20,838 nt of DNA from positions 1 to 20,838 of IMG/VR virus record IMGVR_UViG_3300021961_000771. One strand, 5' to 3'. The stretch is from a virus. Shown one piece after another: positions 1,604 through 20,838 of this stretch. A program made the translations under genes and the position numbers. The notes under the pieces were generated by a model. It made no database searches and was not told the DNA's origin. It saw only the letters and a program-made list of their open reading frames with translations. The number at the start of each line of letters is the position of its first letter. Position 1 is the stretch's first letter.

Positions 1604-1634
1604 TTTAGAAATAAAGCATTAAAAACAATATCAA

Positions 1635-2258: not shown

Positions 2259-2271
2259 AAAGACATAAATA

Positions 2272-3513: not shown

Positions 3514-3537
3514 TTAGAAAATAATATAATACGAAAG

Positions 3538-3570
3538 ACCCCCACACACACAATGGGGGTTTTTTATTTA
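3538..3570 (+). terminator. Strong intrinsic terminator between structural paralogs
   Basis: The stem ACCCCCA (3538-3544) pairs perfectly with TGGGGGT (3554-3560) around a 9-nt CA-rich loop, and is followed by a run of six T (3560-3565) and then ATTTA. It lies 25 nt after the stop of the 413-aa structural gene. It ends that transcript, so the next gene needs its own promoter. Confidence 0.92.
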
Positions 3571-3574
3571 AAGA

Positions 3575-3582
3575 ATATTTAT
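3575..3582 (+). promoter_or_regulatory. Candidate late promoter octamer ATATTTAT
   Basis: This copy sits 9 nt after the terminator T-run and ends 17 nt before the ATG at 3600. Because the strong terminator lies just upstream, a promoter is expected within these few bases, which makes this the best-supported of the five copies. The leader would be short. Confidence 0.52.
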
Positions 3583-3599
3583 ATAAAATCAAAACTTAG

Positions 3600-4457
3600 A
3601 TGTTAAAGGAAATTTCTAAATCGGATATTATAACAAGACCAATTAAAGTTTATAAAGAATGGACTTTGGATGAAAATGATATATTTCCTATTTTTGGTGA
3701 AAATCCAAATAATACTTTTATTGATGTAGATTCTGACGCTAAAAGTCAAGGGTTTAATAAAAAAGTAATTTACGAATCAATTAAAGCGCAATTTTACACA
3801 AACCCAGCAACAGCATCTGCTTTATTTGAAGTTGGTTTAAGAAAATCTTATGCATCTACCGATGAAAGAGTTTTGGAAAATGAAATGGCCATATTTTCAA
3901 TTCCACAACGATATTATGGGGAAGGTATTAAGGTAGGTACAGTTATTTTAGAAGATGAAACATTAAGTAGAACATATAGAGATGATGGATACTCTAATTT
4001 ATTAGATTCTGGTAGTAATATAAAAGGTAATGTATTTTATGATAGAGGATTAGTAGTTGTTACTAAAGATGTAGTTAGTGGTTCTGTATTAAATCAATTT
4101 ACTTTAAGTTATCGTTCAACCAAAACAATATATGAAAACGAAATATTTATTTCAGTATTAGAAAATGAATTCAATGTTTCACAAAACCCATCAGCGGTTG
4201 ATTTTAATGGAACTGATTTTGGTAAAATAAAATTAACATCAATAACATCATCGATAAATCCAACTGTAACTGGTGGATTTGCAGACTTCGAATACAGCTC
4301 ATCAATAGATAGAACTGGTTCATTTTTAGCACCCTATATTACTACGATTGGATTATATGATAATGATTTGAATATGGTGGCTGTAGCGAAACTGCCACAA
4401 CCAATAAAGTCACTACCAGATTATCCAGTAAACTTTATTATTCGTTTCGATACATAG
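3600..4457 (+). CDS. Phage virion structural protein, paralog of the preceding one
   Basis: 285 aa. From about residue 95 it matches the plan of the C-terminal half of the 413-aa protein just upstream. IFSIPQRYYGEGIKVGTVIL corresponds to the KKFGDDLGLSGRTFKV region, GNVFYDRGLVVVTKDVV to GTFYPDRGIIVLNAEAI, ENEFNVSQNP to NREFNYSNNP, and ITTIGLYDNDLNMVAVAKLPQPIKS to ITTVGLLNDANELIAVAKTSQPIVKS. The end, VNFIIRFDT, replaces VLIKVKLSF. It lacks the long N-terminal part of its paralog and instead begins with about 90 residues containing SKSDIITRPIKVYKEW. This looks like an old duplication giving two related virion components. No catalytic motifs are visible. It starts a new transcript after the terminator at 3538-3570. 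Confidence 0.72.
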   Translation: MLKEISKSDIITRPIKVYKEWTLDENDIFPIFGENPNNTFIDVDSDAKSQGFNKKVIYESIKAQFYTNPATASALFEVGLRKSYASTDERVLENEMAIFSIPQRYYGEGIKVGTVILEDETLSRTYRDDGYSNLLDSGSNIKGNVFYDRGLVVVTKDVVSGSVLNQFTLSYRSTKTIYENEIFISVLENEFNVSQNPSAVDFNGTDFGKIKLTSITSSINPTVTGGFADFEYSSSIDRTGSFLAPYITTIGLYDNDLNMVAVAKLPQPIKSLPDYPVNFIIRFDT

Positions 4458-4461
4458 TGTT

Positions 4462-4469
4462 ATATTTAT
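4462..4469 (+). promoter_or_regulatory. Candidate late promoter octamer ATATTTAT
   Basis: This copy lies in the 35-nt gap after the 285-aa structural gene and ends 23 nt before the ATG at 4493. Its flanks (GTT before) match those of the copy at 1596. Function is inferred from the shared placement. Confidence 0.42.
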
Positions 4470-4492
4470 AGGTAATTAAATAACTAAGAAAA

Positions 4493-4723
4493 ATGTCTAA
4501 AATAGTAGAATTATTATTAACTAAAAAGCCAAAAGATTCCCAAGCTAATACAAAAGGTATTGATAAGACTCCTATTGGCGTAGAATTCCCATTTCAAAAT
4601 TCGAAAGATTTGGTAAAAACTGATTTATCAAAACCAAGAGGTGGACAAATAGGTGGTACAACTGGAGGATTTAACCCATCTAAAAAATACGCAGATTCGG
4701 TTAATACTGCAAAAAATAAATAA
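4493..4723 (+). CDS. Small Lys-rich hypothetical protein
   Basis: 76 aa, not recognised. It is basic (many Lys) and low in hydrophobics after residue 10. A Gly-rich patch (PRGGQIGGTTGGFNPSKKYA, about residues 48-67) suggests a mostly disordered polypeptide. There is no signal peptide, membrane segment or known motif. The A-rich leader ACTAAGAAAA precedes the ATG. Its stop codon directly abuts the GTG of the GIY-YIG gene, so the two are probably translated in a coupled way. A candidate late octamer sits upstream, so a minor virion or packaging-related role is possible but unsupported. Confidence 0.6.
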   Translation: MSKIVELLLTKKPKDSQANTKGIDKTPIGVEFPFQNSKDLVKTDLSKPRGGQIGGTTGGFNPSKKYADSVNTAKNK

Positions 4724-5134
4724 GTGAGCTGGAAATTTAATGGAAATATTGTTACAGAGGAAAACACACCGGAAGGTGCAGTTGGTTTTGTCTATAAAAT
4801 GATACATGTCCCAACTGGTAGATTTTATATAGGGAAGAAATCCCTAAATCAAGTTCGAAGATTGAAGCCCCTTAAGGGTAAGACTAGAAAGAGAGTTGTT
4901 AGAAGTGCTTCCGATTGGGAGAAATACTATTCATCAAACGAATGGATTAAATCCGAAGTAAAAGAGGGTAGAGCTGGTGATTTTGAAAGAGAGATTATCC
5001 AGTTTTGCTTTTCCAAAAAATCCTTATCATATTACGAAATTAAATGGCAGTTTCATTACGATGTACTAGCCAACGAACAAGCAATAAACGAAAACCTTAT
5101 GGGAAAGTTTTTCCGTAGGGATATTATAAATTAA
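4724..5134 (+). CDS. SegE-like GIY-YIG nuclease
   Basis: 136 aa. The protein carries a GIY-YIG nuclease core: GFVY at residues 21-24 for the first motif, YIG at 35-37 for the second, basic residues at 45-46 and 54-60, WEKYYSS (65-71), and SYYEIKWQF (102-110) with Glu105 as the likely metal-binding glutamate. It ends with an Asn-containing segment near 122-124. This arrangement matches the SegE-type GIY-YIG domain family of T4-like phages. The start is GTG, immediately after the TAA of the preceding gene. No in-frame ATG occurs before codon 26, and starting there would delete the GFVY motif, so GTG is the best choice. No separate DNA-recognition domain is present, so it may be a free-standing mobile endonuclease or a recruited phage nuclease. 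Catalytic family is confident; target is unknown. Confidence 0.8.
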   Translation: MSWKFNGNIVTEENTPEGAVGFVYKMIHVPTGRFYIGKKSLNQVRRLKPLKGKTRKRVVRSASDWEKYYSSNEWIKSEVKEGRAGDFEREIIQFCFSKKSLSYYEIKWQFHYDVLANEQAINENLMGKFFRRDIIN

Positions 5135-5138
5135 AGTT

Positions 5139-5339
5139 ATGACAATACCTGAAATCGCAAAGAAGTACGGAATCTCCGAAGCTTATTTAAACGCAAAAGA
5201 TGATGCACTTCAAATAGCAGCAGCATCGTTAGTAGACCTTAAAGGAATGGTAACAAATAATGTACCAAGAGAACAAATTGCTAACAAATTACAATTTTTA
5301 GCAGATTTCCTTTATGATGTAAAGAATTCTAACCATTAA
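5139..5339 (+). CDS. Small helical hypothetical protein
   Basis: 66 aa, not recognised. It is probably all helical. The opening IPEIAKKYGISEAYLNAKDD (residues 3-22) resembles the first helices of a helix-turn-helix-like or adaptor fold, but is too short to assign. The second half (DLKGMVTNNVPREQIANKLQ, 33-52, then FLADFLYDVK) is amphipathic. The gene starts 4 nt after the stop of the nuclease gene, so it is probably the last member of that transcript. It ends just before the promoter of the primase operon. Confidence 0.58.
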   Translation: MTIPEIAKKYGISEAYLNAKDDALQIAAASLVDLKGMVTNNVPREQIANKLQFLADFLYDVKNSNH

Positions 5340-5390: not shown

Positions 5391-6329
5391 ATGCTATCTG
5401 GTAGGAATAAATTACAAATAATTACAATATTAGACTCTACACTTGGTGTGGGTTCATCCCTAAAGGGTAATGAACAGGCACATCATTGTCCATTTTGTAA
5501 CCACCACAAAAAGAAGTTACAAATCAACTTAGATACGCAAAGATGGCATTGTTGGGTATGTGATTCTAAAGGTAGAAGTATCTATTCACTACTCCGTAAA
5601 CTCAATGTGGATGTAAGAGACCTTAATAAGGTTAAAGATGTTTATGGTGATGAGCCTGAATATGATTCCAAAGAGGAGTATGTAGCTAAGTTACAATTAC
5701 CAAAAGAATTCAAACAATTATATTTCAAACCAACTGGTTCATTTAATCCATCATATAATCAAGCTATACACTATTTAAATAAAAGGGGTATTAAGAAAGC
5801 TGATATAGTAAAACATAATATTGGGTATTGTGAAGATGGATTATATGGTGGTAGAGTAATTATTCCATCTTATGATGATAGTGGTGAACTTAATTACTTT
5901 GTGGCCCGTTCTTTTTATGAAGATGAACCATACAAATATAAGAATCCACCTATTAGTAGGGATGTAATTGTATTTGAAAATCAAATCAATTGGAAAGAAC
6001 CTATCACATTAGTTGAGGGTGTATTTGACTCATTTTCAGTAAAGAGAAATGTAATTCCGTTGCTAGGTAAATTCTTACTTAGTAAATTGAAAAACAAAAT
6101 TATGGAGAATGGTGTTAAGGATGTAACAATTATGTTAGATTCGGATGCAGTTGATGATTCCACTAAACATACCGAATGGTTTCAGAAAAATGGGATTAGA
6201 GTAAAGAATATTATACCAACCGATAAAGATGCTGGTGAAATGGGATTTGAAAAAGTAAACGAACTATTGAAAGGTGCTAAAGAAACCGGATGGGATGATT
6301 TAGTACTTTCAAAACTAAATAATATATGA
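5391..6329 (+). CDS. DNA primase (zinc finger + TOPRIM, gp61/DnaG-like)
   Basis: 312 aa, close to T4 gp61 (about 340 aa). It would make RNA primers for lagging-strand synthesis together with a replicative helicase that is not encoded in this window. The N-terminal zinc ribbon has Cys33 and Cys36 (HHCPFCNHH) and Cys54 and Cys57 (WHCWVC), the usual template-recognition module. The central region holds an RxxIPxxDxxG-like stretch (GGRVIIPSYDDSGELNYFVA, 153-172). The TOPRIM part has the catalytic Glu209 in LVEGVFD and the DxD pair Asp250/Asp252 in IMLDSDA. There is no helicase domain. The gene is first in an operon behind a host-type promoter and overlaps the next gene by ATGA, implying translational coupling with the recombination nuclease. 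Early or middle expression is inferred. Confidence 0.88.
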   Translation: MLSGRNKLQIITILDSTLGVGSSLKGNEQAHHCPFCNHHKKKLQINLDTQRWHCWVCDSKGRSIYSLLRKLNVDVRDLNKVKDVYGDEPEYDSKEEYVAKLQLPKEFKQLYFKPTGSFNPSYNQAIHYLNKRGIKKADIVKHNIGYCEDGLYGGRVIIPSYDDSGELNYFVARSFYEDEPYKYKNPPISRDVIVFENQINWKEPITLVEGVFDSFSVKRNVIPLLGKFLLSKLKNKIMENGVKDVTIMLDSDAVDDSTKHTEWFQKNGIRVKNIIPTDKDAGEMGFEKVNELLKGAKETGWDDLVLSKLNNI

Positions 6330-9300
6330 ATAGATTAAAAACGATTTATCACATTGCGGATATACACATCCGTAACATCAAAAGACACAAAGAGTTTAGA
6401 GAAGTATTCTATGCTATGTTTGATGAGATTAAGAAAAGAGGAACTGATGATGCTATTATTTATTTAGCTGGAGATATTGCACATGCCAAATTGGAAATGA
6501 GTCCTGAATTGGTGAGTGAGATTAGTTGGTTATTTACCGAATGTAACAAATTGTGTACCACTATTGTAATTGCTGGTAATCATGATTGTAATATGAACAA
6601 TGCGGATAGGATGGATGTACTTACTCCAATTGTAGATGCATTAAAGTTACCAAATCTACATTATTTAAGAGATACACAAGTGTATGGGATTGGTGGAGTT
6701 GATTTTGCAGTATTCAGTATATTCGATAATAAAGATAATTGGCCTAAAGCTGATACTCTATTTGGTAATAAGAAGATTGCACTATTTCACGGACCTGTTG
6801 ATAACTCTACAACCGATGTAGGATATGTAGTTAGTAGTAGACACTTTACAACTGATATATTTGATGGATATGATTTAGCACTATTGGGAGATATACATAA
6901 AAGACAAGAAATGATTTCACCAAGCGGATGTAAGGTGGTATATGCTGGTTCATTGGTACAACAAAACTTCGGTGAAACCTTAGATAAGCACGGATTCTTA
7001 GCTTGGGATTTGGATACAATGACTTACGAAGAAATTGATATACAAAACGATTATGGTTATTACACTTTAGATGTTGATGGTGGTATTGTGCCGGATGTAA
7101 CTGATATGCCGAAGTTTCCTCGTTTAAGAGTGAGGATAACTAATACCGATACTGCTGATACAAAGAGAATGATGGCAGATATTACGGCAAAGTATGGTGT
7201 GGAAGATTTTACAATCATTCGTACCGATTCATTCCAAACTAAAAAGACAGGTGATAGAGAAGCAAGGTTGGAGGTAGATAGTGTGAGTGATATAAACCAT
7301 CAAAACTCTTTAATAGGGGAGTATGTGGAACGTATGATGCCATTCGTAACAAAGGAGGACTTAGCTGGGATAGAGAAAATCAATCGTGACATTAATAGTA
7401 GAGTACAACCATCAGAACTACAAAGGAATATAAGCTGGAAGCCTGTAAAGTTTGACTTCTCTAATATGTTCAGTTATGGCGAAGATAATATCATTAAGTT
7501 TGATAAGGTAAACGGACTGATGGGATTATTCGCACCAAACGCACAGGGTAAATCCAGTCTATTTGATGCAATCTCATTTTGTTTGTTTGACAAATGTAGT
7601 AGAGCGTATAAGGCAGCTTCAGTTATGAACAATAGGAAGCAGGACTTCCATTGCCAATTAGATTTCACTATTGATGGGGTAATGTACCATATCCGTAGAG
7701 AGGGTAGAACGATTAATAAAGGAAGAAACGTAAAGGTAGATGTGGACTTTTGGAGAGATAGTGATAGTGGAAGGGAATCTCTAAACGGAACGGAGAGAAG
7801 GGATACCAACCAAATCATTGAAACGTATGTAGGAAGGTATGATGATTTTGTAATGACAGCATTGAGTTTGCAAGGAAACAATGCCCTATTCATTGATAAA
7901 TCACAATCCGAAAGGAAAGACCTCCTTGCTCAATTTATGGGATTGGATATGTTTGATAAGCTGTATGAAACTGCAACGAATGACATTAAAGACGTGAACG
8001 CTCTTATCAGAAATTTCAAGCGTACTGATTTTACGACAGAATTAGCCCAAAAAGAAAACGACTTGAATGAGAAGAAGGTTGAGTATGGGGACTTGGATTT
8101 GGAGAAAAAAGAATTAGAAACTCGTAAAGCAGATTTAGAAGAACAAATTGTAAATCTATCGCAAGAAATAGTTCCAATTCAAGGTAACTTAGATATTGAT
8201 GAATTAAATAGTAAACTTAAAAAAATTGGTGAAGATTTAACAACTTGGGGAGATACTAAGTTTGATAAAACCATAAAACTTACGGAAGCAACGGAATTGG
8301 TTAGGGAAGCTAAAGAAATGATTAATTCTAAGGTTACTATTAATGGTACGGATATTGGGCAAGCTCAAATTGAACTAAATTTAGTTAATGGACAATTGAG
8401 AGAAACAAAACATCAGATTCAATTATTAGAACAATCAATAAATTCTAATAAAGAAAAATTAGCACACTTAGCAGAGCATGAGTATGACCCTAATTGTAAT
8501 TTTTGTATGAACAATGTATTCGTAAAGGATGCAAAAGAAACGGAAAGAAAATTAGCTGAGCAAAATAATCAATTGGAAACTCTTAATATATTGTTAGATG
8601 CTTTTAAAGTGCAATTGGAAGATTTGGATGGAGTTGAGGAGCAATTTGGTAAATGGAAAGAGTGGACTGATGAATATAAAAGATTAATTATTGTAAGAGA
8701 ACGATTAGAAGGTGATATTAGAAATGCAGATTCTAAAATTGAATTACTACAAACTCAAAAAGAAAATGTAAATGCTGATATTGTTAGATATAATGATAAC
8801 GAAGAAACAATCACTAAGAATCAGGCATTAGATATTCAAATTCAAAATGTTCGTAGATTAAAGCAAGGTGTGGAAAATCAAATATCGGATGTAAACAAAC
8901 TTATGCTGAAATTAATGTCAGAGGTGGGTGCCACAAAAACATTCATTGACAATATGAAAGCTAAGATGGAAGAAGTTAAGGAATTGGAAACTAAAAACCA
9001 ACTATACACATTCTACTTAGATGCAGTTAAGAAAGATGGAGTACCTTACGAATTAATATCTAAAGCACTTCCAGCAATTGAAAACGAAGTGAACAACATA
9101 TTAGGACAAGTGGTGGACTTCTCAATATCTATGGATACTGATGGAAAGAACATTAACGCTAGAATCGTTTATGAGGACCAGGAGTGGGCTTTAGAGATGT
9201 GTAGTGGTATGGAGAAGTTCATATCGGGATTAGCGATTAGAGTGGCTCTAATTAACATCTGTAACCTGCCTAGGCCTAACTTCTTAGTAATTGATGAAGG

Positions 9301-9472
9301 GTTTGGAACATTGGATGCAGATAATCTATCATCTTTATTTATGATGATGCAATATCTTAAAACTCAATTCGATTTTATTTGGGTAATTTCTCACTTAGAA
9401 CAAATGAGAGATATTGTAGATGGACTTATCGAAATCAAAAAAGTAGATGGGTTCTCTAAGATTAATTTTTAG
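6326..9472 (+). CDS. Fused Mre11/SbcD-Rad50/SbcC recombination nuclease (gp47-gp46 fusion)
   Basis: 1048 aa in a single frame; T4 and most cells use two proteins. Residues 1 to about 350 form the metallophosphoesterase: ADIH (11-14), GDIAH (49-53), GNHD (84-87), FHG (154-156) and GDIH (188-191). After a short linker, the SMC-like ATPase has Walker A APNAQGKSS (403-411) and a Q-loop Gln near 516. Coiled coils run from about 565 to 710 and 735 to 890, flanking the zinc-hook CNFC (724-727). The C-terminal lobe has the signature CSGMEKF (959-965), Walker B FLVIDE (986-991) and His1023 in ISHLEQ. All catalytic motifs are intact. In T4 the complex resects DNA ends for recombination-dependent replication. 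Pairing with the primase by a 4-nt overlap fits that role. A terminator follows. Confidence 0.93.
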   Translation: MNRLKTIYHIADIHIRNIKRHKEFREVFYAMFDEIKKRGTDDAIIYLAGDIAHAKLEMSPELVSEISWLFTECNKLCTTIVIAGNHDCNMNNADRMDVLTPIVDALKLPNLHYLRDTQVYGIGGVDFAVFSIFDNKDNWPKADTLFGNKKIALFHGPVDNSTTDVGYVVSSRHFTTDIFDGYDLALLGDIHKRQEMISPSGCKVVYAGSLVQQNFGETLDKHGFLAWDLDTMTYEEIDIQNDYGYYTLDVDGGIVPDVTDMPKFPRLRVRITNTDTADTKRMMADITAKYGVEDFTIIRTDSFQTKKTGDREARLEVDSVSDINHQNSLIGEYVERMMPFVTKEDLAGIEKINRDINSRVQPSELQRNISWKPVKFDFSNMFSYGEDNIIKFDKVNGLMGLFAPNAQGKSSLFDAISFCLFDKCSRAYKAASVMNNRKQDFHCQLDFTIDGVMYHIRREGRTINKGRNVKVDVDFWRDSDSGRESLNGTERRDTNQIIETYVGRYDDFVMTALSLQGNNALFIDKSQSERKDLLAQFMGLDMFDKLYETATNDIKDVNALIRNFKRTDFTTELAQKENDLNEKKVEYGDLDLEKKELETRKADLEEQIVNLSQEIVPIQGNLDIDELNSKLKKIGEDLTTWGDTKFDKTIKLTEATELVREAKEMINSKVTINGTDIGQAQIELNLVNGQLRETKHQIQLLEQSINSNKEKLAHLAEHEYDPNCNFCMNNVFVKDAKETERKLAEQNNQLETLNILLDAFKVQLEDLDGVEEQFGKWKEWTDEYKRLIIVRERLEGDIRNADSKIELLQTQKENVNADIVRYNDNEETITKNQALDIQIQNVRRLKQGVENQISDVNKLMLKLMSEVGATKTFIDNMKAKMEEVKELETKNQLYTFYLDAVKKDGVPYELISKALPAIENEVNNILGQVVDFSISMDTDGKNINARIVYEDQEWALEMCSGMEKFISGLAIRVALINICNLPRPNFLVIDEGFGTLDADNLSSLFMMMQYLKTQFDFIWVISHLEQMRDIVDGLIEIKKVDGFSKINF

Positions 9473-9726: not shown

Positions 9727-12700
9727 ATGGCAGTAATAAAGAAATTTGCGGAAAACCTTACCCAAAATCTAACTACATTTCAAACATTTTTAGTAGATAC
9801 TAATCCAAATTCAACATACTTCAAAGTAACTGAATTTAAGGATACATTTACTGGAGGTAAAAATGGGTTTTTGATTGAAGGGTCTGAACATTTGATGGAA
9901 TCTACTGAAATAAAGATTCAAATATTGGATGTAAACGGAAATCCTATATATTATGAACCAGGTAATGGTGTACCTGAATATTATGAAGGAACATCCAAAT
10001 TGGTTGCTGTTTATGTTTATGAAGATACCCCAATTGGTACTGCGAAGATAACAATATTAGGTGAATTAAAAACTTATTTAGATGAAGGTGGAGTTTTACA
10101 GCAAATACCAAATGAATGGAAAAATGTATATAATCTTAAGTGGGAAAAGGAGTTTAAAGTAAATAGATTACTTTCAAACGAAGACAAGGTAAGATTTTAT
10201 AGAAGACCTGAAGTTACAATCGATGAGATAGTAAAACCGATATTTTCAAATGTAGTAACTCCAATAGTTCAAAAAGGTTTTGTAGATGGATTTGCACAAA
10301 CACCGGGTCAAGGTGAAAAACTTACCGATTATACACTACCAACAAATTATTTAATTCAAATAAATGATGGTGGTGCATGGACTGGTTCTGTTGTTGGAAC
10401 TACTATTGAATTTACTGATTTGGGATTCACATCTCAGGCAGATGATGTTATAAGTAAAACTGATTTAACTGTAACAAATCCATATACAATAAATGGTATT
10501 GTGCAAGATTTTTCAAATCAACGATATACGGCATCTTTTAATTATGTAGAGGGTATTGATAATTTAAAGACAGCTTTAACTGGTTCTTTTGCTAAAATTA
10601 ATATTACTGACTTAACCACATTTGTGGGTGATGTTGCTAGGGTAAAGATATTTAGAAAATCTCAATCCGATTTAGCTGATTATCAATTCATACAAGAAAT
10701 TCAATTAGAATCAAATGAGTTGTTAAAAGATTTAGAATCAACAACTAAAAATGAAGAATTCTATGGTACATTTGACCCATTTAATTTTAAAAATTATTGG
10801 ATAACATCTTCAAATAATTTAACAACAGCGTTTAATCAAAATTATTTATATAATTCTGTTAAATTGAATAGTAATGGTGTTAATAAATTTTTTACATCAA
10901 AATCCCTACAAATAACCGAAAATACGGAATATACACTTACATTTAATGTAAGATTGGGAAATCAAACAATATCAACGGCGGATTATGTATCAGTTTACAT
11001 AAGTGGTTCTAGACAATCCACATTTGGAAACGCAACTACTAACGTAGGGGTTCAACAAAATATATTAACTGTAACAGAAGATAACTCTCTTTTACAAAAA
11101 TCACAAATAACAGCCAATTTTAAAGGAGAACAATTTAATAATGCTAAATTATATTTTGATGTAAAAGGAAATGATTGGTACATATCAGATGTAAGTTTAA
11201 GAGCATCACAAGAGAGTTCATTTTCTCCAAATGAAATATCATTTATACAACCAGTTCCAAGAACATTACCAAAAGAAACATTTGATTTCTTATTTCAATT
11301 TTATGATATAAACAACAATTATATACCTGTTGTTGTTGAAGAATCAAAAACATTTGATGGTGGTAACTTAAATCGTATTAACAAAAGTTTGGAATTAATT
11401 CCATCATCTTTGTATTTTCAATTTGATTCTGGTTCTGGTAATGGAAATCCTGTACCACCTAATGTTATTTTTATAGATGTTGTTAAAAACTTTTTAACTG
11501 GTTCGGTTACGTTTACATCACGCTCATTTGATTTTTTCAATACCGAATTATCATCTTCAATGTATGATACTTCATATTGGGCTACAACTCCTTTAAGTAG
11601 TTCATTAATATCACCACCATTTACATCGTGGAAATTTCCTGGTTTATTAAATGATTTAAATACCGATAAACCTTATTTAACTGTACAAAATTTTACTGGT
11701 TCTAGAGATCCCGGTTTAGAAGAAATTTTAGTTCAATTTATAGAATATACCGCAGAATGTGAAGGTGTCGAAGATACTATTATTATTACAAGAGTTATAG
11801 ATGGTAAAGGTGGAGTAAATTACGAAATCAGACCTTATAATGGAACTGTAATTAGAAACTCCGATTCTGCTTCATCTTTAGAAGTTCAAGCAATTCGTAT
11901 TGATGGGGTTAATGAAATAAATTTAAGAAATGGATTACCGGCTGGACGTTCTAATATAAAATTACACGTTCAATCTGGTTCAAAGTATATTACTCTTAGT
12001 GAAGCTAGTGGTAGTGGATGGGTTAAAGGATTGAAACCCGGTATTACTGGGTCTGGTATTATAGATTATAATGCAATATTCAATAGAGATTCAATCGATG
12101 GACAGAGAACATTATATATGATTCCAGTATCACAATCAAATCCATCCGCATCTATTTTAACTGCAATAACTCTTACTGATTTACAAGATGGTTTAGATGC
12201 TGGTATTGTTTTATATGATGCGGATACATTTACAATAAATCCAAGAACTCAAACAAAATTTACTCCACTATTTGCATCAGCTACTGCATCATTTTATAAA
12301 AGAGGTCAATTTGATTCACCATTAAGTTGTTCATTTGAAGTATATCCATCGATGTCAATTAATGAAGATTTTGTTCCTGAATATTGGGTTCAATATGTAA
12401 CGCATAGTTGTGACCCAACTATAACTGTTGTTGCTTATGATGAATTTGGAAATATAATACCATCAAGAGGAAACGCAGCAACTTATCCATTAGGATTGGC
12501 TGTATCTCAAAGTAAACAATTATTAACAAGCTTTGTTTATACTGAACCTTGGACTTCAGCATCAGTATCAGTTGATAAACTATTCACAATAGTACCAGAA
12601 GGTAAACCGGGAGATGAAAGTATTATATTTGAAGTAAATCCAGCGGCAGTAACATTAGCAGCAAATTCAAGAGGTATTGTTAATGATTATAAACCAACAA

Positions 12701-15700
12701 TAACTGATATTAAATTAAAGCAAGGTTCTAGATATTTGGCATTTACTGGAAGTAGAAAGCCAGGTACATTCCATATAGCAACTTCTTCTATATTTTCATC
12801 AAATGTAACTGGTGGTTTGGTTTATTTTGACAACGCATATACCGAATCGTTAATAATAAGTGCATCTTATGGATTCATTAATTTAAGTGGTAGTATTACA
12901 TATCCATTGGAAATTAGACCATATTATACATCATCAGTTTACACAGCAAGTGTGGTTCAACCATATACAAAAGTATTGGAAGGGCCTCCACCAATTCAAA
13001 TCCTAATAACTCCACCAAATGTAACTTTAACAGCAAACGAAGTTGGATATGTAGCTCCGGTAGGATACTCTCCTACAAATACAACGTTGCAGGTAAAAGA
13101 GGGTGATGATTTTTTAATATATACATCATCTCAACATCCTGGTACTTGGAAAATAAATTCAATTGAAACTAGAGGTGGTTCTATATGGAATATAAGAACT
13201 GCATCATTGAATACTGTACCAAATAATTTGGGAACGTTATCAGCAACTGCATCATTTAATAGATTTGATTATCCATATATTTCGGCAAGTGCACTTTATA
13301 CAATTCAAGTATATCCATTTGCATTAGGAAGTGGACATGAATATACATCATCTGTTTTTACTCGTACACAAACATTTACAAAGAATGTATCAGTACCAAA
13401 TGCTAGAACAGTAGAATTAAAAGCAAATCCATACACTATAAATTATGATAGAGATGGATATAGAGTTTCTCCTGAAGGTGATGTTGAACTTAAAGCAACT
13501 GCATTTAATACAACTGGTTCTACATGGTTTAGTTTATTCTTTGTTGATACCGATGGGGCTGAAACCTTATATGATGGTCCATACTATGAAGGAGTTGGTA
13601 TAACCGAAAAGTTATTTTTTATACCTGGTACGGATGCGGCAGGACCTGAAGAAAATAAAACTTGGAAAGTTAAAATTACCGATGGAAATCCTTATACATC
13701 ATCTGTATTAAATCCATATAGAGCAGAAGGACAACTTACAATTGCAGGTATTAAAGCTGGGGCAGATTCTTATAAAATATCTGCAACCAATGAAAGTACA
13801 TCAATAAAAGCAGAATTATTTGATACTGATTTAAACGGAACTGCAATAAAGTTACCAACATATAAAGGTACAAGTGCATTAATAAATGTAACATCGGGAA
13901 ATTATCCAGCACCACAACCAACTGATTATGATTATCTATATAATTTGATTGGTATATTGGGATATTCATCTGCATCTATATTTTATAAATCTCCTTGGAT
14001 TACTTTACCAAACAATAGAGTAACAACAACTCCTGCGGCTATGGCTGATTTAACCTATTGGGATAAGCCGGCTATAAATAAAACTGGTGAAATTGTTTAT
14101 AAAGTTGATTTTGAAGGTTATTCAAATCAAGTAGCAACGGATAATATAAGTAGACCTCCTACTAGACAAACTCAATTTATAACTCAATCTTTTGCAGTTC
14201 AATTTACCGAACCTGCTCCTTATGATGTTAAGATGCAAAATGAAAATTCATCGGCAGTTTATAGAGTATCTGGTGAGCTTGAATTAGGGTCAACATCAAA
14301 TATAATAAGAGCATATAGAGGAAATTATGAATTAACAAATAAACCTTCTGGATTTACAGGAGCTCAAATTGATGCGTATGGTAGTTCATCATACGAATAT
14401 CAATGTACGGTTGAGGTTACATCAAAATCATCTCATATTACTTTAGATAATGGTACTTTAATAGTAGGTAGTTTATTGAGTGGAACGCCTGCATCAATGC
14501 CTGGTATTACAGCTTGGTCTGATCCTGAAAATAACCCAACTGCTGAAATTGTTTATGGTATTAATTGTGAAGGTAGACAAACTATATATAAAACACAATC
14601 ACTATCTGTTCAGTTTGAAGGAGCAGTAGGACCTGGTATTGTAATGAGAGGTGAGTGGAGTCCTAACATTGATTATATTGGACAAGTTGAAACAACAAAC
14701 AATCGTAGAGATGCGGTTACCTATTTAGCAACGCAAGATACAGTAAAATATTACGCAGCAATTAGTGGTAGTGGTCCAGCAACTTATGATAATAATGGTG
14801 TATTGGTTAATTACCATGCACCAACTGTTGATGGTACTAATGCTTGGTGGGAATATTTGGGAGAAGAAGAATTCTTTGTAGCAGCTAAGATTGCAATATT
14901 CGAAGAATCCTATGTTAAGAATACAATCAATGTTGGTACAAAAGATGGAACTGGTGCATTTGCAAATATTGTAATAGCTGGTGGTAGAACTGACCCATAT
15001 ATTGCTATCGGACAAAATGCAACAATTGGTACATCTGGAACTGCTGGTTCTTCATTAAATCCTGGTGGAGCGGTTATTGGATATGAAAGACCTGGCATTT
15101 TCTTAGGAATTTATGAACAAGGAGCTAGTGGTACAACGGGAAGATTTTCAATTGTAAATACTGCCGGTAATCGTTATCTTAAATGGAATGGTAGTGGTTT
15201 AGAAATAGCAGGTGATATTACTGTAACCGGTGGTAATGCGGCAACATCTCAAGCCGTAAGCGGTTCGGTGGCATCTGGGTCATTTACAGCAACTCAAATA
15301 GCAGCAGCAAATACGGCGGTAGCTGTAAATGCTCTTAGTGGTTCATTAGGTGCTATGGCAGCTATTAATGCAATTAATAGTGGTAATGCTACCACATTTA
15401 TAGGACCGGGTGTTATTGTAGCAAATATGTTTGCTGGTACGGCAATACAATCTACAAACTATGTATCTGGTACAGACCCAATTTTTTCCGATACCGGTAC
15501 ATTTATTAATTTGGCTGGAAGTTCAATACGAATGAAAGGATTTGGTGTAAACAGTGCTGGGGATGTATTTTTTAAAGGAAATTTAACTGGAGCAACCGGT
15601 ATATTCCGAGATAATGTAACTGTTGGTACTGGAAGTGTAGCAATTACAATGACATCTACAAATGGTACGGGTAGTTTAATTGGGGCTGGGTTTTCATTGG

Positions 15701-17151
15701 GACCAGAAGGATTAACCGTAACAAACGCAACTATATCTGGTGTAATTAATGCTAGTGGTGGTTCTATTGGAAGTTGGACAGTTGAAAATAATATTCTTAG
15801 AGATGGTAATAGTAGAATTTTCCTTGACCCATCACTTCCCGGTATTGCAATTAAAGAAAGTGGTGATACTAAACTAAAAGTGAATTTTGGAGAATTAACC
15901 GATTTAGGTGGTTCTAGTATTTCTCTTTCAGCCGAAACATTATCATATTTTGATACATTTGCTGTTTCAACTTATATTAACATCGATGAAGAAAGTTCCG
16001 GACAATCGTTTAGTGTAGTAGCCGGTACATATACTGATGGAAGTGTATCTTGGCCTGGTCAAGGTTCGGTAATACAAGCATTTAATCGTGAAGGAAGTAT
16101 AGATATATATTGGGGGTATAGAATTTATAATGGAGCAACTTTAGTATCCGAAGTAATAGTTGACTCTGAGTATTGGGTAGGTGGAGTTGATGATAGTTAT
16201 GCATCATTCTATGGATATAGTGGAAACTTTCAATTTAGTGCACCAGAAGCTGCAAGTACATCATATACTTTTAAAACTTTCGTAAAAGCACAAGGGTATC
16301 AGTACTCTGTTGGTGGAGGTGGTGGTAATTCATTCGCAGTAAGTGCATATATGGTAACACCATCAATAAGCGCAGTAGCAAATGTCGATATTGTTGAATT
16401 GACTAATAAAGGAATTCAAATTGCATCATCTGCTGATAGATTTATAAAATTAAGAAGGGAAGATAATCCATCTATTCCAATTATAGATGGAAAAGGATTT
16501 ATAACATTAACAGGTGATACAGCAAATACATTATTACAATTAAGTGGTACAACCGGTGCAGGTGCAACTTCTATAAACATAGCAAGTGGTACTGGTAAGA
16601 TTGCTATGAATGGTAACAATATTGAAATGGGTACTGGTACTGTGTCTTGGAATCCTGGTGCAAATCCTGGTTCACTAACAACACACAATGTTGGTGGTAA
16701 TCTAAGACCTACCGTTCGAATGGAAAATATTCCTGGTTCGGGTGATTTGGGTGGTACTATTAGAGATATGGAGTTTTCGTTATCACAATGGAAACTTGGT
16801 AGAAATACATCAGCAAGAAGATATAAAGAAGATATTCAAAATTGGACACATCCATCTTTATTGGAAGCTGTAAATAATACTCCTATACGAACTTTCTATT
16901 GGAAAGTAGATGCTGAAAAAGAACATAGACCTCAACAAATTGGAGTTATTGCGGAAGAATTAGAAGGAGCGGGATTGGAGGAATTTGTGGATTATGATTG
17001 GTTTGATAACCCTGATAATCCAGAAGGAGATAAATTATGGATGACTTCTGGTATTGCTAAAGGGGAATTAGTATTCGTACTTTGGAAAGCTTTGCAGGAA
17101 TTATCACAAAAAGTAGAAAGATTAGAAGCACAAATAAGTGGTTCTTTATAA
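9727..17151 (+). CDS. Giant tail fibre with C-terminal S74 intramolecular chaperone
   Basis: 2474 aa, about twice T4 gp34. It is Ser/Thr/Asn/Gly-rich with hardly any Cys. Residues 1-175 form a distinct domain, probably the virion anchor. A long beta region follows with repeats: VNPAAVTLAANSRG...PGTFHI (969-1017) resembles PPNVTLTANEVG...PGTWKI (1094-1143), and 1438-1497 resembles 1590-1633, both ending QSxxVQF. Residues 1642-1712 (GEW to AWWEYLG) resemble a small carbohydrate-binding module (weak). A shaft-like Gly-rich region contains GVINASGGSIGSWTV (from 2005), typical of phage fibres. The S74 chaperone starts near SARRYKEDI: Ser2362 and Lys2367 have the five-residue spacing of the endosialidase catalytic dyad. 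GVIAEELE and a C-terminal coiled coil follow. Trimerisation should trigger self-cleavage before Ser2362. Role: host recognition. Confidence 0.9.
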   Translation: MAVIKKFAENLTQNLTTFQTFLVDTNPNSTYFKVTEFKDTFTGGKNGFLIEGSEHLMESTEIKIQILDVNGNPIYYEPGNGVPEYYEGTSKLVAVYVYEDTPIGTAKITILGELKTYLDEGGVLQQIPNEWKNVYNLKWEKEFKVNRLLSNEDKVRFYRRPEVTIDEIVKPIFSNVVTPIVQKGFVDGFAQTPGQGEKLTDYTLPTNYLIQINDGGAWTGSVVGTTIEFTDLGFTSQADDVISKTDLTVTNPYTINGIVQDFSNQRYTASFNYVEGIDNLKTALTGSFAKINITDLTTFVGDVARVKIFRKSQSDLADYQFIQEIQLESNELLKDLESTTKNEEFYGTFDPFNFKNYWITSSNNLTTAFNQNYLYNSVKLNSNGVNKFFTSKSLQITENTEYTLTFNVRLGNQTISTADYVSVYISGSRQSTFGNATTNVGVQQNILTVTEDNSLLQKSQITANFKGEQFNNAKLYFDVKGNDWYISDVSLRASQESSFSPNEISFIQPVPRTLPKETFDFLFQFYDINNNYIPVVVEESKTFDGGNLNRINKSLELIPSSLYFQFDSGSGNGNPVPPNVIFIDVVKNFLTGSVTFTSRSFDFFNTELSSSMYDTSYWATTPLSSSLISPPFTSWKFPGLLNDLNTDKPYLTVQNFTGSRDPGLEEILVQFIEYTAECEGVEDTIIITRVIDGKGGVNYEIRPYNGTVIRNSDSASSLEVQAIRIDGVNEINLRNGLPAGRSNIKLHVQSGSKYITLSEASGSGWVKGLKPGITGSGIIDYNAIFNRDSIDGQRTLYMIPVSQSNPSASILTAITLTDLQDGLDAGIVLYDADTFTINPRTQTKFTPLFASATASFYKRGQFDSPLSCSFEVYPSMSINEDFVPEYWVQYVTHSCDPTITVVAYDEFGNIIPSRGNAATYPLGLAVSQSKQLLTSFVYTEPWTSASVSVDKLFTIVPEGKPGDESIIFEVNPAAVTLAANSRGIVNDYKPTITDIKLKQGSRYLAFTGSRKPGTFHIATSSIFSSNVTGGLVYFDNAYTESLIISASYGFINLSGSITYPLEIRPYYTSSVYTASVVQPYTKVLEGPPPIQILITPPNVTLTANEVGYVAPVGYSPTNTTLQVKEGDDFLIYTSSQHPGTWKINSIETRGGSIWNIRTASLNTVPNNLGTLSATASFNRFDYPYISASALYTIQVYPFALGSGHEYTSSVFTRTQTFTKNVSVPNARTVELKANPYTINYDRDGYRVSPEGDVELKATAFNTTGSTWFSLFFVDTDGAETLYDGPYYEGVGITEKLFFIPGTDAAGPEENKTWKVKITDGNPYTSSVLNPYRAEGQLTIAGIKAGADSYKISATNESTSIKAELFDTDLNGTAIKLPTYKGTSALINVTSGNYPAPQPTDYDYLYNLIGILGYSSASIFYKSPWITLPNNRVTTTPAAMADLTYWDKPAINKTGEIVYKVDFEGYSNQVATDNISRPPTRQTQFITQSFAVQFTEPAPYDVKMQNENSSAVYRVSGELELGSTSNIIRAYRGNYELTNKPSGFTGAQIDAYGSSSYEYQCTVEVTSKSSHITLDNGTLIVGSLLSGTPASMPGITAWSDPENNPTAEIVYGINCEGRQTIYKTQSLSVQFEGAVGPGIVMRGEWSPNIDYIGQVETTNNRRDAVTYLATQDTVKYYAAISGSGPATYDNNGVLVNYHAPTVDGTNAWWEYLGEEEFFVAAKIAIFEESYVKNTINVGTKDGTGAFANIVIAGGRTDPYIAIGQNATIGTSGTAGSSLNPGGAVIGYERPGIFLGIYEQGASGTTGRFSIVNTAGNRYLKWNGSGLEIAGDITVTGGNAATSQAVSGSVASGSFTATQIAAANTAVAVNALSGSLGAMAAINAINSGNATTFIGPGVIVANMFAGTAIQSTNYVSGTDPIFSDTGTFINLAGSSIRMKGFGVNSAGDVFFKGNLTGATGIFRDNVTVGTGSVAITMTSTNGTGSLIGAGFSLGPEGLTVTNATISGVINASGGSIGSWTVENNILRDGNSRIFLDPSLPGIAIKESGDTKLKVNFGELTDLGGSSISLSAETLSYFDTFAVSTYINIDEESSGQSFSVVAGTYTDGSVSWPGQGSVIQAFNREGSIDIYWGYRIYNGATLVSEVIVDSEYWVGGVDDSYASFYGYSGNFQFSAPEAASTSYTFKTFVKAQGYQYSVGGGGGNSFAVSAYMVTPSISAVANVDIVELTNKGIQIASSADRFIKLRREDNPSIPIIDGKGFITLTGDTANTLLQLSGTTGAGATSINIASGTGKIAMNGNNIEMGTGTVSWNPGANPGSLTTHNVGGNLRPTVRMENIPGSGDLGGTIRDMEFSLSQWKLGRNTSARRYKEDIQNWTHPSLLEAVNNTPIRTFYWKVDAEKEHRPQQIGVIAEELEGAGLEEFVDYDWFDNPDNPEGDKLWMTSGIAKGELVFVLWKALQELSQKVERLEAQISGSL

Positions 17152-17159
17152 ATTTTTAT

Positions 17160-17167
17160 ATATTTAT
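17160..17167 (+). promoter_or_regulatory. Candidate late promoter octamer ATATTTAT
   Basis: This copy is in the 30-nt gap after the fibre gene and ends 14 nt before the ATG at 17182. It sits inside a longer TATA-rich run (17157-17170), so it is the least specific of the five copies. Any transcript from here would have a very short leader. Confidence 0.36.
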
Positions 17168-17181
17168 ATACAAACAAAAAT

Positions 17182-17433
17182 ATGGAAAAGCAAATACAAA
17201 AATTGGAATCTTCTTTAGTGGAAAAACTTAAAGAACTTAACACAAAAAAAAACGAACTTATTATAAATACGGGTCAATTACATTTAGAAATAAAAGAATT
17301 GGAAAAATTAATATCTGTTGTGGAATTTGAATTTGAAGATACGAATAAACAACTAAATTCATTATTATCTGATTTAGAAAAGCAATATCCTAATGGGGAG
17401 ATTGATTTATTACAGGGTACTGTTATTTTCTAA
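17182..17433 (+). CDS. Small coiled-coil protein downstream of tail fibre
   Basis: 83 aa, not assigned to a family. Residues 1-70 are an almost unbroken, highly charged heptad-type helix (KQIQKLESSLVEKLKELNTK, 3-22, continuing to LLSDLEKQ). A short conserved-looking tail with YPNGEIDLLQGTVIF ends the protein. It has no Cys, signal peptide or membrane segment. It follows the fibre gene after 30 nt and could be a fibre-associated oligomerisation or assembly factor, but that rests on position only. The following glycosyltransferase gene has its own promoter. Confidence 0.66.
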   Translation: MEKQIQKLESSLVEKLKELNTKKNELIINTGQLHLEIKELEKLISVVEFEFEDTNKQLNSLLSDLEKQYPNGEIDLLQGTVIF

Positions 17434-17443
17434 AAAAAATAAA

Positions 17444-17475
17444 TTTGGTAATTCAAAAATAAATTCGTATATTTG
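17444..17475 (+). promoter_or_regulatory. Bacteroidota-type housekeeping promoter for glycosylation operon
   Basis: TTTG at 17444-17447 and TATATTTG at 17468-17475, separated by 20 nt, match the Bacteroidota consensus TTTG-N(19-21)-TAnnTTTG completely. The ATG at 17483 is only 7 nt after the -7 box, so the transcript would be leaderless or nearly so. The core 13-mer is shared exactly with the primase promoter. Confidence 0.88.
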
Positions 17476-17482
17476 TTACAAT

Positions 17483-19660
17483 ATGGCAAAGAAAAAGTTA
17501 CTTTATGTATGCCCCCATCTTTCGACGGGAGGGCAACCTCAATACACATACAAACAATTAAAACACTTTATAAACGATTTTGAAATAGAAGTTGTTGAAA
17601 TAAATAATAGTGGTGGTGACGCGTTTGTGGTTCAAAAAAATAGAATTAAATCATTAGTTCCAATACATACGTTGGATACGGATAAATCTAAGATATTGGA
17701 TGTAATAACTCAATTCAATCCTGATATAATACATTTTCAGGAAATACCGGAGTTTGATTTAGATACCAATATATTAGACAAAATCTTTGTTGATGTTAGA
17801 AATTATTTTATAGTAGTAACAACACATGGTTCTTTTACAAATCCAAACGAAATACGATACCAACCAGACAAATATGTTTTAGTTTCGGAATGGAGTAAGA
17901 AACGATTTGAAGAAGCTAATTTAGGAATTGATTTAGATATATGGGAATATCCCATCGAAGAATACACTTTCGATAAAGAAGCTAGACAAAAAGAATTAGG
18001 ATTAGACCCAACTTGGAAGCATGTACTTAATGTTGGTTTATTTTCACCTGGCAAAAACCAAGCTGAAATATTTCAAATAGCAAGGCAGTTAGAAAAATAC
18101 AAAGTAAAATTTCACTTTGTAGGAAATCAAGCTATGAACTATGAGGATTATTGGAAACCACTTATGCAATATAAGCCCGATAATTGTATAGTTTGGGGAG
18201 AACGTGATGATGTAGATACTTTCTATGCAGCATGTGATTTGTTTTACTTTTCATCTAAATTAGAATTAAACCCATTATCAGTTAAGGAGGCACTTTCATA
18301 TAAGATGCCATCTTTATTCCGAAAATTGCACACTTATTTAGATACATACGATACAAATGAATTGGTTAGTTATATTGATGATGATTTAAAACTAACCAAA
18401 CGAATTATATTAGAAAAATTACAACCTGAATTCAATGAAATACCTGGTTGGTTTTCTTATACTGATTTGTACGATGAATTGGTTGAGAAAGTACCAGAAA
18501 ATGCAAATGTAGTTGAAGTTGGAGCTTGGTTTGGAAAATCCACAAATTATTTAGCAAGTAAAATAAGAGAATCTGATAAGAAAATAAATTTTACAACCAT
18601 TGATACTTTTAAAGGAACTGATGATGAGGAATTACATCAAACAATAGTAAATAGTTTTACTGGTGATATATTTTATGAATTTATAGATAATACCACATTA
18701 TCAAAAAACTATGGTACATTTGATATAATAAAAGATACATCAAAAAACGCAGCAAACCAATTCACTAATTGCAGTATAGATTTTATAATGTTAGATGCTG
18801 GGCATTCATACGAAGCCCTTATGGATGATTTGAAAGTTTGGTATAATAAAATTAAACCAGGCGGATATATAACAGGCGATGATTATGGTGTATTTGAAGG
18901 AGTTACTAGAGCATCAAACGAATATTTTTATGGTCAGATTAATAGAGGCAATCGTTCATTTATTCGTAAGAAGCCACGTATTCAAATAAAGCATTTATTG
19001 ACTAGACCTGATGATATGAGAGAAATGGTTAGTATTCAATCTATTAAGCAATTGGAAAAATACGGAATGGTATATCAGCCAATTGTAAATGAAGTATATG
19101 AAGGATTGGCACCTGCTGAAAATTGTAGAAGGCCGGAACATATAAGTAAAGATAATAAGCCCGGTGAATTATACCCTGGTGCTGGGTTGGGTTGGATGAC
19201 TGGTAGACACTATGGTTGTTATTTAGCACATAGAGGAGCATTGGAAACAATCGATACCAAAAACTTTGATTACACTTTAATATTTGAAGCTGATGCATTT
19301 ATCTATACTGGATTGGAAGAATTTGTTGAGATAGTACATAGAGCTTGCTTTATTTCAGAACTACATGATGTGTATTATATATCATTAGCGGATAACCCAT
19401 CAAGAGGTAAAGAAAAAATAGATGAACTATTTTCAAAAACAGCATTTAATCAAGACCTTGCACATGCGTATTTAATACCAAATAGAACTAAGGGATGGTG
19501 GTTAGATAGGATTGTTGATTGTGGTTGGGATGTTGGTGACCTTTGGTTCAATCATGTATTTTATAATCACCCCAAACCAAGATACACTACAAACAAAGTT
19601 TATAGTAAACAAGCCGAAGGATTTTCCCTATTGGATTTAACAGTTAAAACTTGGAGTTAA
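17483..19660 (+). CDS. Three-domain glycan enzyme: GT-B glycosyltransferase, SAM methyltransferase, GT25-like transferase
   Basis: 725 aa. The ATG at 17483 is preferred over an in-frame ATG at 17393 because the promoter lies between them and the protein then opens with a typical GT-B strand (KKLLYVCPHLSTGGQPQYTY). Domain 1 (about 1-315) is GT4-like, with the C-lobe strand VLNVGLFSPGKNQAEIFQ (181-198) and the donor-site region LFYFSSKLELNPLSVKEALS (253-272). Domain 2 (about 320-480) is a class I methyltransferase of the Methyltransf_24 type: SAM loop VVEVGAWFGKS (343-353), then FIMLDAGHSYEALMDDL (434-450) and KPGGYITGDDY (458-468). Domain 3 (about 510-725) resembles GT25 LPS glycosyltransferases: GCYLAHRGALE (578-588) and TLIFEADAFI (598-607), where EAD replaces the usual EDD. 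It overlaps the next gene (TAATG). It probably builds or caps a methylated glycan. Acceptor unknown. Confidence 0.82.
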   Translation: MAKKKLLYVCPHLSTGGQPQYTYKQLKHFINDFEIEVVEINNSGGDAFVVQKNRIKSLVPIHTLDTDKSKILDVITQFNPDIIHFQEIPEFDLDTNILDKIFVDVRNYFIVVTTHGSFTNPNEIRYQPDKYVLVSEWSKKRFEEANLGIDLDIWEYPIEEYTFDKEARQKELGLDPTWKHVLNVGLFSPGKNQAEIFQIARQLEKYKVKFHFVGNQAMNYEDYWKPLMQYKPDNCIVWGERDDVDTFYAACDLFYFSSKLELNPLSVKEALSYKMPSLFRKLHTYLDTYDTNELVSYIDDDLKLTKRIILEKLQPEFNEIPGWFSYTDLYDELVEKVPENANVVEVGAWFGKSTNYLASKIRESDKKINFTTIDTFKGTDDEELHQTIVNSFTGDIFYEFIDNTTLSKNYGTFDIIKDTSKNAANQFTNCSIDFIMLDAGHSYEALMDDLKVWYNKIKPGGYITGDDYGVFEGVTRASNEYFYGQINRGNRSFIRKKPRIQIKHLLTRPDDMREMVSIQSIKQLEKYGMVYQPIVNEVYEGLAPAENCRRPEHISKDNKPGELYPGAGLGWMTGRHYGCYLAHRGALETIDTKNFDYTLIFEADAFIYTGLEEFVEIVHRACFISELHDVYYISLADNPSRGKEKIDELFSKTAFNQDLAHAYLIPNRTKGWWLDRIVDCGWDVGDLWFNHVFYNHPKPRYTTNKVYSKQAEGFSLLDLTVKTWS

Positions 19661-20805
19661 TGATATACGATAATTTGGTAAAAAATAAAAATAATAAAAT
19701 TGATATAGAAAACAAAGTTCATTATCATTTTGTAAAAGGTCCTTTTGTTGAAATTAAAGGACAAAAAAAGGCGGAATATACCGTTGAGTTTGTAGATAGA
19801 AAGAATGACAAAGTTTTATTTAAATCAACAATAGGAAATAATTGTTGGTGTAAATGTAGTATAGAATATTTTGTAGATTGGAAAATTATAATTTATGAAA
19901 ATGGAAAACATTGGGCAGAATATAATTACGAACCAAAAGGTAAAAAAGTTTATGTAGCATTGGATTCTAGAGCATTGGGAGATACATTAGCTTGGTTTCC
20001 GTATTTAGAAGAATTTAGAAAAAAACATAATTGTAAATTGGTTGCATCAACTTTTATGAATGATTTTTTTTCAACGGAATATCCTAACATAGAATTTATA
20101 AAACCCGGTGATACTGCAGATGGTTTATATGCTATGTATTGTATTGGGTTATTTTATAATGAAGATGATTCTATAAATTTATTTAAAAATCCAATTGACC
20201 CAAAGACAGTAACACTCCAAAAAATGTGTTCTGATATATTGGGATTACAATACAAAGAAATAAAACCAAACTTGCAAAGAAAAAATCCACCTTTGGAAAA
20301 AATAAAGCAAGTATGTATTGGAGTATTCGGAACAGCACAATCTAAATTTTGGAATAACCCAACTGGTTGGCAAGATGTAGTAGATTGGTTAAACAACAAA
20401 GGATATACAGTAAAATTAGTATCAAAAGAAGGTGATGATTATATGGGTAACAAATTACCAAAAGGAATTGTACATCACCCAAATGGACCTATTGAATTGG
20501 TGATGGATGAATTAAAAAAATCAAAAGCATTTATTGGTATTGGTAGTGGTTTAAGCTGGTTAAGTTGGTCTTTGGATGTGCCTACTGTATTAGTAAGTGG
20601 ATTTTCCTATGATTGGGCGGAGATGCAAGATTGTATTAGAATTACTGCACCAAAAGGAAAATGTGAAGGTTGTTTTAATAGATTACGATTAAATGCTGGA
20701 GATTGGAATTGGTGCCCGGACCATAAAGGTACTGAAAGACAATTTGAATGTACAAAATCAATTACATCGGAAATGGTAATTAAAGAATTAGAAAAGTTTT
20801 TGTAA
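19660..20805 (+). CDS. Autotransporter-type heptosyltransferase (GT9, TibC/Aah-like)
   Basis: 381 aa from the ATG at 19660; a TTG nine bases earlier is possible but unneeded, because the TAATG overlap couples it to the upstream gene. The N-terminus (1-95) is a beta domain. The GT9 fold follows: KVYVALDSRALGDTLAWFPY (96-115), VCIGVFGTAQSKFWNNPTGW (218-237), and the donor-site stretch FIGIGSGLSWLSWSLDVPTV (291-310) leading into LVSGFS. The C-terminus has four cysteines, C335-x2-C338, C352 (NWCPDH) and C364 (FECTKSI), in the arrangement I know from the iron-finger of bacterial autotransporter heptosyltransferases. In bacteria these transfer heptose from an ADP-heptose donor to Ser of adhesins. 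Here the likely acceptor is the phage's own fibre or another surface protein (inference). LPS or another glycan is an alternative acceptor. Confidence 0.83.
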   Translation: MIYDNLVKNKNNKIDIENKVHYHFVKGPFVEIKGQKKAEYTVEFVDRKNDKVLFKSTIGNNCWCKCSIEYFVDWKIIIYENGKHWAEYNYEPKGKKVYVALDSRALGDTLAWFPYLEEFRKKHNCKLVASTFMNDFFSTEYPNIEFIKPGDTADGLYAMYCIGLFYNEDDSINLFKNPIDPKTVTLQKMCSDILGLQYKEIKPNLQRKNPPLEKIKQVCIGVFGTAQSKFWNNPTGWQDVVDWLNNKGYTVKLVSKEGDDYMGNKLPKGIVHHPNGPIELVMDELKKSKAFIGIGSGLSWLSWSLDVPTVLVSGFSYDWAEMQDCIRITAPKGKCEGCFNRLRLNAGDWNWCPDHKGTERQFECTKSITSEMVIKELEKFL

Positions 20806-20838
20806 TGAAAAAGATTTGGATAAATGGTTGTTTTGATG
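20805..20838 (+). CDS. Nucleotidyltransferase, HldE/RfaE type, N-terminal fragment (3' end outside window)
   Basis: Only 11 codons are visible: MKKIWINGCFD. The start overlaps the stop of the heptosyltransferase gene (TAATG), the same coupling as the previous pair. NGCFD after a short strand is the opening motif of HxGH cytidylyltransferase-like enzymes, and GCFD rather than GTFD favours the ADP-heptose synthase (HldE C-terminal domain, RfaE2) branch over TagD-like enzymes. An ADP-heptose-forming enzyme beside a heptosyltransferase would be coherent, but the short fragment limits certainty. Confidence 0.68.
   Translation, partial: MKKIWINGCFD

Follow-up and report, generated by a model that had tools for sequence, protein, structure and literature searches.

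What does a virus glycosylate when it carries, downstream of a giant tail fibre, a relative of the bacterial autotransporter heptosyltransferases (BAHTs)? The question is raised by a window of 20,838 nucleotides, the complete assembly of the IMG/VR virus record IMGVR_UViG_3300021961_000771. Here a 2474-aa fibre gene is followed by a three-domain transferase, named GTMT for its GT4, methyltransferase and GT25 domains, by a BAHT-family enzyme and by the start of a nucleotidyltransferase gene. On balance, we favour the reading that these genes belong to a virion-fibre O-glycosylation module that would act on proline-free collagen-like tracts. The enzyme set of this phage family probably attaches and decorates sugars on the phages' own collagen-like tail fibres. 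Comparison with relatives points to collagen-like Gly-(Thr/Ser)-Ser tracts as the acceptors, and heptose is the likely first sugar. These repeats, first seen among the neighbours of distant BAHTs, are labelled GTSG below. The features of the window are as follows.

9727..17151, + strand: tail fibre of 2474 aa with a C-terminal Peptidase_S74 chaperone, found family-wide upstream of the module
15028..15060, + strand: short segment GTSGTAGSSLN, fibre aa 1768-1778, the sole tandem collagen-like motif of the window
16810..16989, + strand: Peptidase_S74 (endosialidase chaperone) domain of the fibre (2e-7)
17182..17433, + strand: coiled-coil protein of 83 aa, homologous to a ~130-aa protein across the module in relatives
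17483..18427, + strand: GT4 glycosyltransferase domain with a PHLSTGG motif (Pfam PF00534, 4e-10)
18512..18886, + strand: S-adenosylmethionine methyltransferase domain, TylF/Methyltransf_24 (Pfam)
18962..19660, + strand: GT25-fold glycosyltransferase domain (fold match; Pfam GT25 just 0.005)
19660..20805, + strand: BAHT-family O-glycosyltransferase (TIGR04414), collagen-tract branch; its start overlaps the preceding stop (TAATG)
20662..20751, + strand: BAHT iron-finger cysteines C335, C338, C352 and C364, equivalent to TibC C339, C342, C358 and C370
20805..20838, + strand: HldC-like nucleotidyltransferase, first 11 codons (34 bases, MKKIWINGCFD, ATG at 20805), cut by the contig end

An earlier reading of the letters without database searches (the sequence-only reading) had listed a fibre, a transferase, a heptosyltransferase and the start of a nucleotidyltransferase. 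The open reading frames and a TIGR04414 match of 279.3 bits (curated cut-off 200) confirm this list, and the enzymes of most relatives likewise score over the cut-off. The window BAHT aligns along its length with TibC (4rap, 2e-55). It keeps the catalytic D110, the phosphate-binding T226 and K230 and the heptose-binding W305 (TibC numbering; catalytic, phosphate, heptose and adenine contacts as assigned in PMC4358343), all four of which are invariant in our residue comparison. The thumb-tip hydrophobics are present as Tyr/Met. In a tree of the family, for which the root was assumed and the genomes are not independent of each other, the strand-loop-strand (SLS) class of bacterial BAHTs forms a branch of its own (100/100), and the enzymes of the window family group with those of the GTSG bacteria and phages. 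The TIGR04415 repeat, the strand-loop-strand acceptor that TibC-type enzymes modify, is absent from the window fibre and had no match over cut-off in 20 related records. The enzyme had been called TibC/Aah-like; this holds for the family and fails for the branch. Because the partner TIGR04415 repeats were not found, we class the window BAHT as a member of a sister branch and not as an autotransporter heptosyltransferase.

The partner of this sister branch was sought in a bacterial set of 301 genomes from the order of Methylomicrobium (G027). The BAHTs of this order fall into two classes, scoring ~660 bits and ~310 bits, the latter being the range in which the phage enzymes score. In the ~660-bit (SLS) class a TIGR04415 protein adjoins the BAHT in 3 of 7 cases and a GTSG protein in none of the 7. 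In the ~310-bit class, with L205 of another genome included, a secreted GTSG protein adjoins 9 of 10 BAHT genes; the partner of the tenth is a decayed Ser-rich homologue. In L410 the BAHT partner at 2787-3460 is decayed, with an in-frame stop in its Ser-rich tract, and the adjoining cellular BAHT looks intact. A strict codon pattern (three GT(S/T) triplets) matched 65 times across five genomes (3.6-5.1 Mb each), at a single place in every one, and all 65 lie less than 2 kb from a BAHT. BAHTs are few in the class of G027 (369 genomes sampled) and in the phylum of G029 (395 genomes).

BAHT and tract also co-occur in viral contigs. Such contigs were selected by GTSG DNA alone and controls by a random 15-mer, with size and taxonomy only roughly matched; 19 of 40 GTSG contigs of 30 kb or longer hold a TIGR04414 match (18 over cut-off) against 0 of 20 random ones (p=8e-5). 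Among GTSG contigs of at least 80 kb, 9 of 11 carry a BAHT. Where contigs of the window family extend far enough downstream, GTSG fibres are present in six (G001, G020, G004, G011, G009 and G014), with 353 and 181 motifs in G001 and 53 in G004; the G001 and G004 fibres, those tested, match PF01391. The tracts of this family lie mostly on other fibre proteins, ~16-60 kb from the module. In the 190-kb Microcystis phage Mel-JY01 and the 266-kb phage G020, however, the protein that bears them is the counterpart of the adjacent fibre. The Mel-JY01 fibre contains 149 consecutive triplets, split by the record ends yet in frame; it spans the record start of PP395634.1, where it is unannotated and the record instead lists hypothetical genes on the other strand. 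Over the 27,492 triplets of the GTSG proteins collected, position X is Thr or Ser in 88% and position Y is Ser in 79%, with Pro below 0.5%.

The module is conserved as a unit. One scan of IMG/VR gave 137 encoding relatives, of which 80 were retained. Their gene order is fibre, coiled coil, GTMT, BAHT, optional HldC-like and HldA-like genes, coiled coil, NMNAT-like, p227, terminase and portal. GTMT precedes the BAHT in all 61 relatives with enough room, and TAATG stop-start overlaps link the last three window genes (GTMT, BAHT and HldC-like). A fibre homologue lies upstream in 49 of the 55 relatives' contigs with room; the predicted placing of extension and capping domains after the fibre also holds across relatives. 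When relatives were instead chosen by a terminase with sufficient upstream sequence, 20 of 24 contained a BAHT and 2 end just before it. For L161, from this sample, the BAHT is located further upstream in the full record, and L162 has an unrelated sugar cassette in place of the module. By eye, this cassette (205-5305) comprises two NAD-dependent epimerase-like genes, an RmlC-like protein and split transketolase-like genes. The small coiled-coil proteins that flank the module, at 17182-17433 in the window and 12318-12713 in L002, are homologous to each other. Between module and terminase nearly every relative encodes a protein of 780-1170 aa, highly variable in length, with an N-terminal NMNAT-like domain (L002 12743-15427 and homologues). 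A tblastn search of INPHARED with the window BAHT matched 4 of 50,697 records, a PHROGs search returned nothing useful for fibre or BAHT, and the open-licence literature yielded no paper describing a phage BAHT or phage ADP-heptose auxiliary genes.

The GTMT reading frame spans 17393-19660, and alignment with relatives places its most likely true start at ATG 17483 (MAKKKLL...). Its three domains had been proposed from the letters; Pfam supports GT4 and the methyltransferase, and the fold supports GT25. AlphaFold models of the transferase domains have mean pLDDT values of 71 and 77. The solved folds nearest to the methyltransferase model include the sugar O-methyltransferases SpnH, MeT1, NovP and MycF. 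The nearest named folds of the C-terminal GT25 domain are the human collagen galactosyltransferase COLGALT1 (Foldseek, 9e-8) and mimivirus R655 (2e-7), accompanied by many viral GT25 proteins. The methyltransferase domain is missing in L059, L158 and LR756501, so capping appears to be optional. Elsewhere the activities are joined in one chain. GT4, BAHT and FkbM form a single protein in L385, GT4-BAHT fusions occur in L384, L390, L382, L389, L249 and L294, and in L385, L384 and L390 it is the PHLSTGG GT4 domain that is fused directly to the BAHT. Mel-JY01 encodes a 1226-aa GT4-...-BAHT protein annotated merely as an FkbM methyltransferase.

The gene cut by the contig end is intact in the nearest relative, L002 (BAHT identity 96%), as a 128-aa nucleotidyltransferase (11155-11541) followed by a 247-aa kinase (11531-12274). 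Their best matches are the two halves of HldE, domain II (TIGR02199, 95 bits, cut-off 181.5) and domain I (TIGR02198, 95.5 bits, cut-off 345), respectively. Since both scores fall below the curated cut-offs, the genes are named HldC-like and HldA-like only. The nucleotidyltransferase had been described as the start of an HldE-like enzyme; relatives have two separate genes in place of a fused HldE. Among 79 informative contigs, 24 have both genes, 15 only HldC-like, 40 neither, and the kinase is never found alone. The proposed nucleotide-sugar supply is thus encoded in about half of the relatives. No GmhA-type SIS_2 or HldD match over cut-off was obtained in 20 records, including the complete Mel-JY01, so the host would have to supply the heptose precursors. 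A 198-aa gene between the HldC-like and HldA-like genes of L158 was considered as GmhA and rejected; this insertion (3468-4061) is 2-oxoglutarate-Fe(II) oxygenase-like. Given the presence of Hld genes and the conservation of W305, K230, T226 and D110, ADP-heptose is the presumed donor.

Several observations weigh against a module acting on collagen-like tracts with heptose. The window ends short of where a collagen-like fibre would be expected, and a Pfam search of its own fibre gave no collagen (PF01391) match. That fibre holds just four short GTSG motifs against 1.05 expected, and four are reached by 27 of 1000 shuffles, which makes its role as acceptor doubtful. A phage BAHT lies within ~1.5 kb of a tract in just 1 of 19 cases, so the link in phages is co-occurrence within one genome; close adjacency there was mostly rejected, with a locus-level enrichment of 9/120 against 0/53 (p=0.06). 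The adenine-contact R286 of TibC is Val in the window BAHT, and the donor nucleotide or sugar may therefore differ; for this reason we hold heptose to be likely and no firmer. This position is hydrophobic in most of the collagen-tract branch and Arg in all 7 SLS-type enzymes. The low Hld scores, the absence of both Hld genes from half of the family and the lack of GmhA and HldD matches count on the same side. GT25 enzymes also act on lipopolysaccharide (LPS).

The sequence-only reading took the adjacent 2474-aa fibre as the acceptor, and a version in which its Ser/Thr loops, unrelated to collagen-like tracts, are modified has to be considered. The regular position of a fibre homologue upstream, the number of GTSG motifs in family fibres (median 4, with 1.0 expected) and the tracts in this very fibre in Mel-JY01 and G020 argue for it. 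Some related fibres have 8-11 GXY triplets, mostly immediately ahead of GPGVVYRG. The description of the window fibre as Ser/Thr-rich is weak, as its Ser+Thr content of 19.2% is similar to that of two other uncharacterised window proteins (17.8% and 19.4%). Against this acceptor stand the missing TIGR04415 repeat and the retention of the BAHT both where the fibre is recognisable only in part (L048, L059 and L080) and where it has no GTSG motif at all (L044 and L045); in the L044 contig a collagen-like fibre with 53 motifs lies ~16 kb away. We consider this acceptor unlikely as an alternative to the tracts. Somewhat less unlikely is a non-heptose sugar on the collagen-like fibres, with the HldC/HldA-like genes making a related NDP-sugar. 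The replaced R286, a Gly at the P300 position throughout the window family, the sub-threshold Hld scores and the 40 of 79 relatives without either gene suggest this, whereas the location of these genes in the operon, their best matches to exactly the two HldE halves and the four invariant contact residues favour heptose.

Modification of host LPS glycans, which would block superinfection, had been offered as the alternative. Enzymes of LPS synthesis are among the members of GT9, GT4 and GT25, seroconverting phages are known, and in L162 the place of the module is taken by another sugar cassette. The window BAHT, however, scores 279 bits as a protein O-heptosyltransferase and 24 as LPS heptosyltransferase I, the module is placed among virion genes (fibre, terminase and portal), and the cellular sisters of the enzyme adjoin a secreted repeat protein. 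It has also kept the iron finger, a part that TibC uses to bind its acceptor and to assemble into a ring (PMC4358343). These points disfavour a host-surface target, which we regard as improbable.

Computation shows which genes are present, which families they belong to, that catalytic residues are kept, that the genes are coupled and that BAHT and tract are associated; from this we infer an acceptor site, a sugar, an order of addition and a benefit for glycosylation of the collagen-like tracts. The BAHT would place the first sugar, most likely heptose, on Ser/Thr of G-(T/S)-S tracts that belong to the phage's own fibres; the neighbouring fibre, with its short GTSG loop, may be a further target. 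Next, the glycan would be extended by the GT4 and GT25 domains and methylated by the methyltransferase domain. Where encoded, the HldC-like and HldA-like enzymes might replenish ADP-heptose from host heptose-phosphate. Modification would occur in the host cytoplasm during fibre folding, and the glycan might stiffen or shield tracts nearly without proline. Tracts without proline and a dedicated transferase fit the idea of a sugar replacing proline, and threonine glycosylation is given as a known collagen stabiliser (Bann et al. 2000, as cited in PMC3368898). Shielding or a tuning of adsorption would be an equally possible benefit. We propose only tentatively that large phages and some bacteria of the methanotroph order have proline-free collagen-like fibres of Gly-(Thr/Ser)-Ser repeats in which dense O-glycosylation by the BAHT branch, and not proline, stabilises the triple helix.

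The window BAHT shares with TibC and Aah the family score, the catalytic Asp, the phosphate and heptose contacts, the iron finger, the thumb-tip region and a gene position near a large surface or virion protein. It differs in its separate branch, its replaced adenine-contact Arg and the absence of a strand-loop-strand acceptor; the partner of the phage branch is a Gly-(Thr/Ser)-Ser tract, and the phage enzymes are often fused to GT4 and a methyltransferase. The Hld-like genes resemble the two domains of HldE (RfaE), but are separate, short, reversed in order and well below cut-offs, and half of the family lacks both. Precedents for sugars on collagen-like Gly-X-Y tracts and for the GT25 fold come from BclA and other glycosylated bacterial collagen-like proteins and from COLGALT1/GT25, and BclA carries a methylated sugar cap (PMC6222408), reminiscent of the methyltransferase here. 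Unlike these, the present system has G-(T/S)-S tracts nearly without Pro, a BAHT as predicted first transferase and a virion context. The EPcl tail proteins of E. coli prophages are likewise collagen-like phage fibre proteins; they are rich in Pro, and by staining their recombinant forms were unglycosylated (PMC3368898), whereas the present tracts lack Pro and occur together with a transferase.

Other genes of these phages deserve mention. Directly 3' of a short DnaG-like primase, the window encodes a 1048-aa fusion of an SbcD-like phosphoesterase and an SbcC-like ATPase (6326-9472), also kept in Mel-JY01 and the 266-kb relative. The protein at 4724-5134 is of SegE-type GIY-YIG; its best PHROG (447) is labelled 'NAD synthetase', an apparent mislabel. 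A NodU/CmcH-type carbamoyltransferase gene (L186 4268-5947; G001 121267-122946), with a DUF6734 gene close by, adjoins the tail genes of a window-family phage.

The BAHT family has previously been tied to virulence autotransporters, as enzymes that coat bacterial adhesins. The present analysis provides an acceptor hypothesis for another branch of it and makes this phage family a testable case of phage-encoded fibre glycosylation. In the bacteria, the secreted GTSG protein and its BAHT form a pair of two genes, small enough for direct testing. The module may offer a reason for the giant proline-free Gly-Thr-Ser tracts found in many environmental phages.

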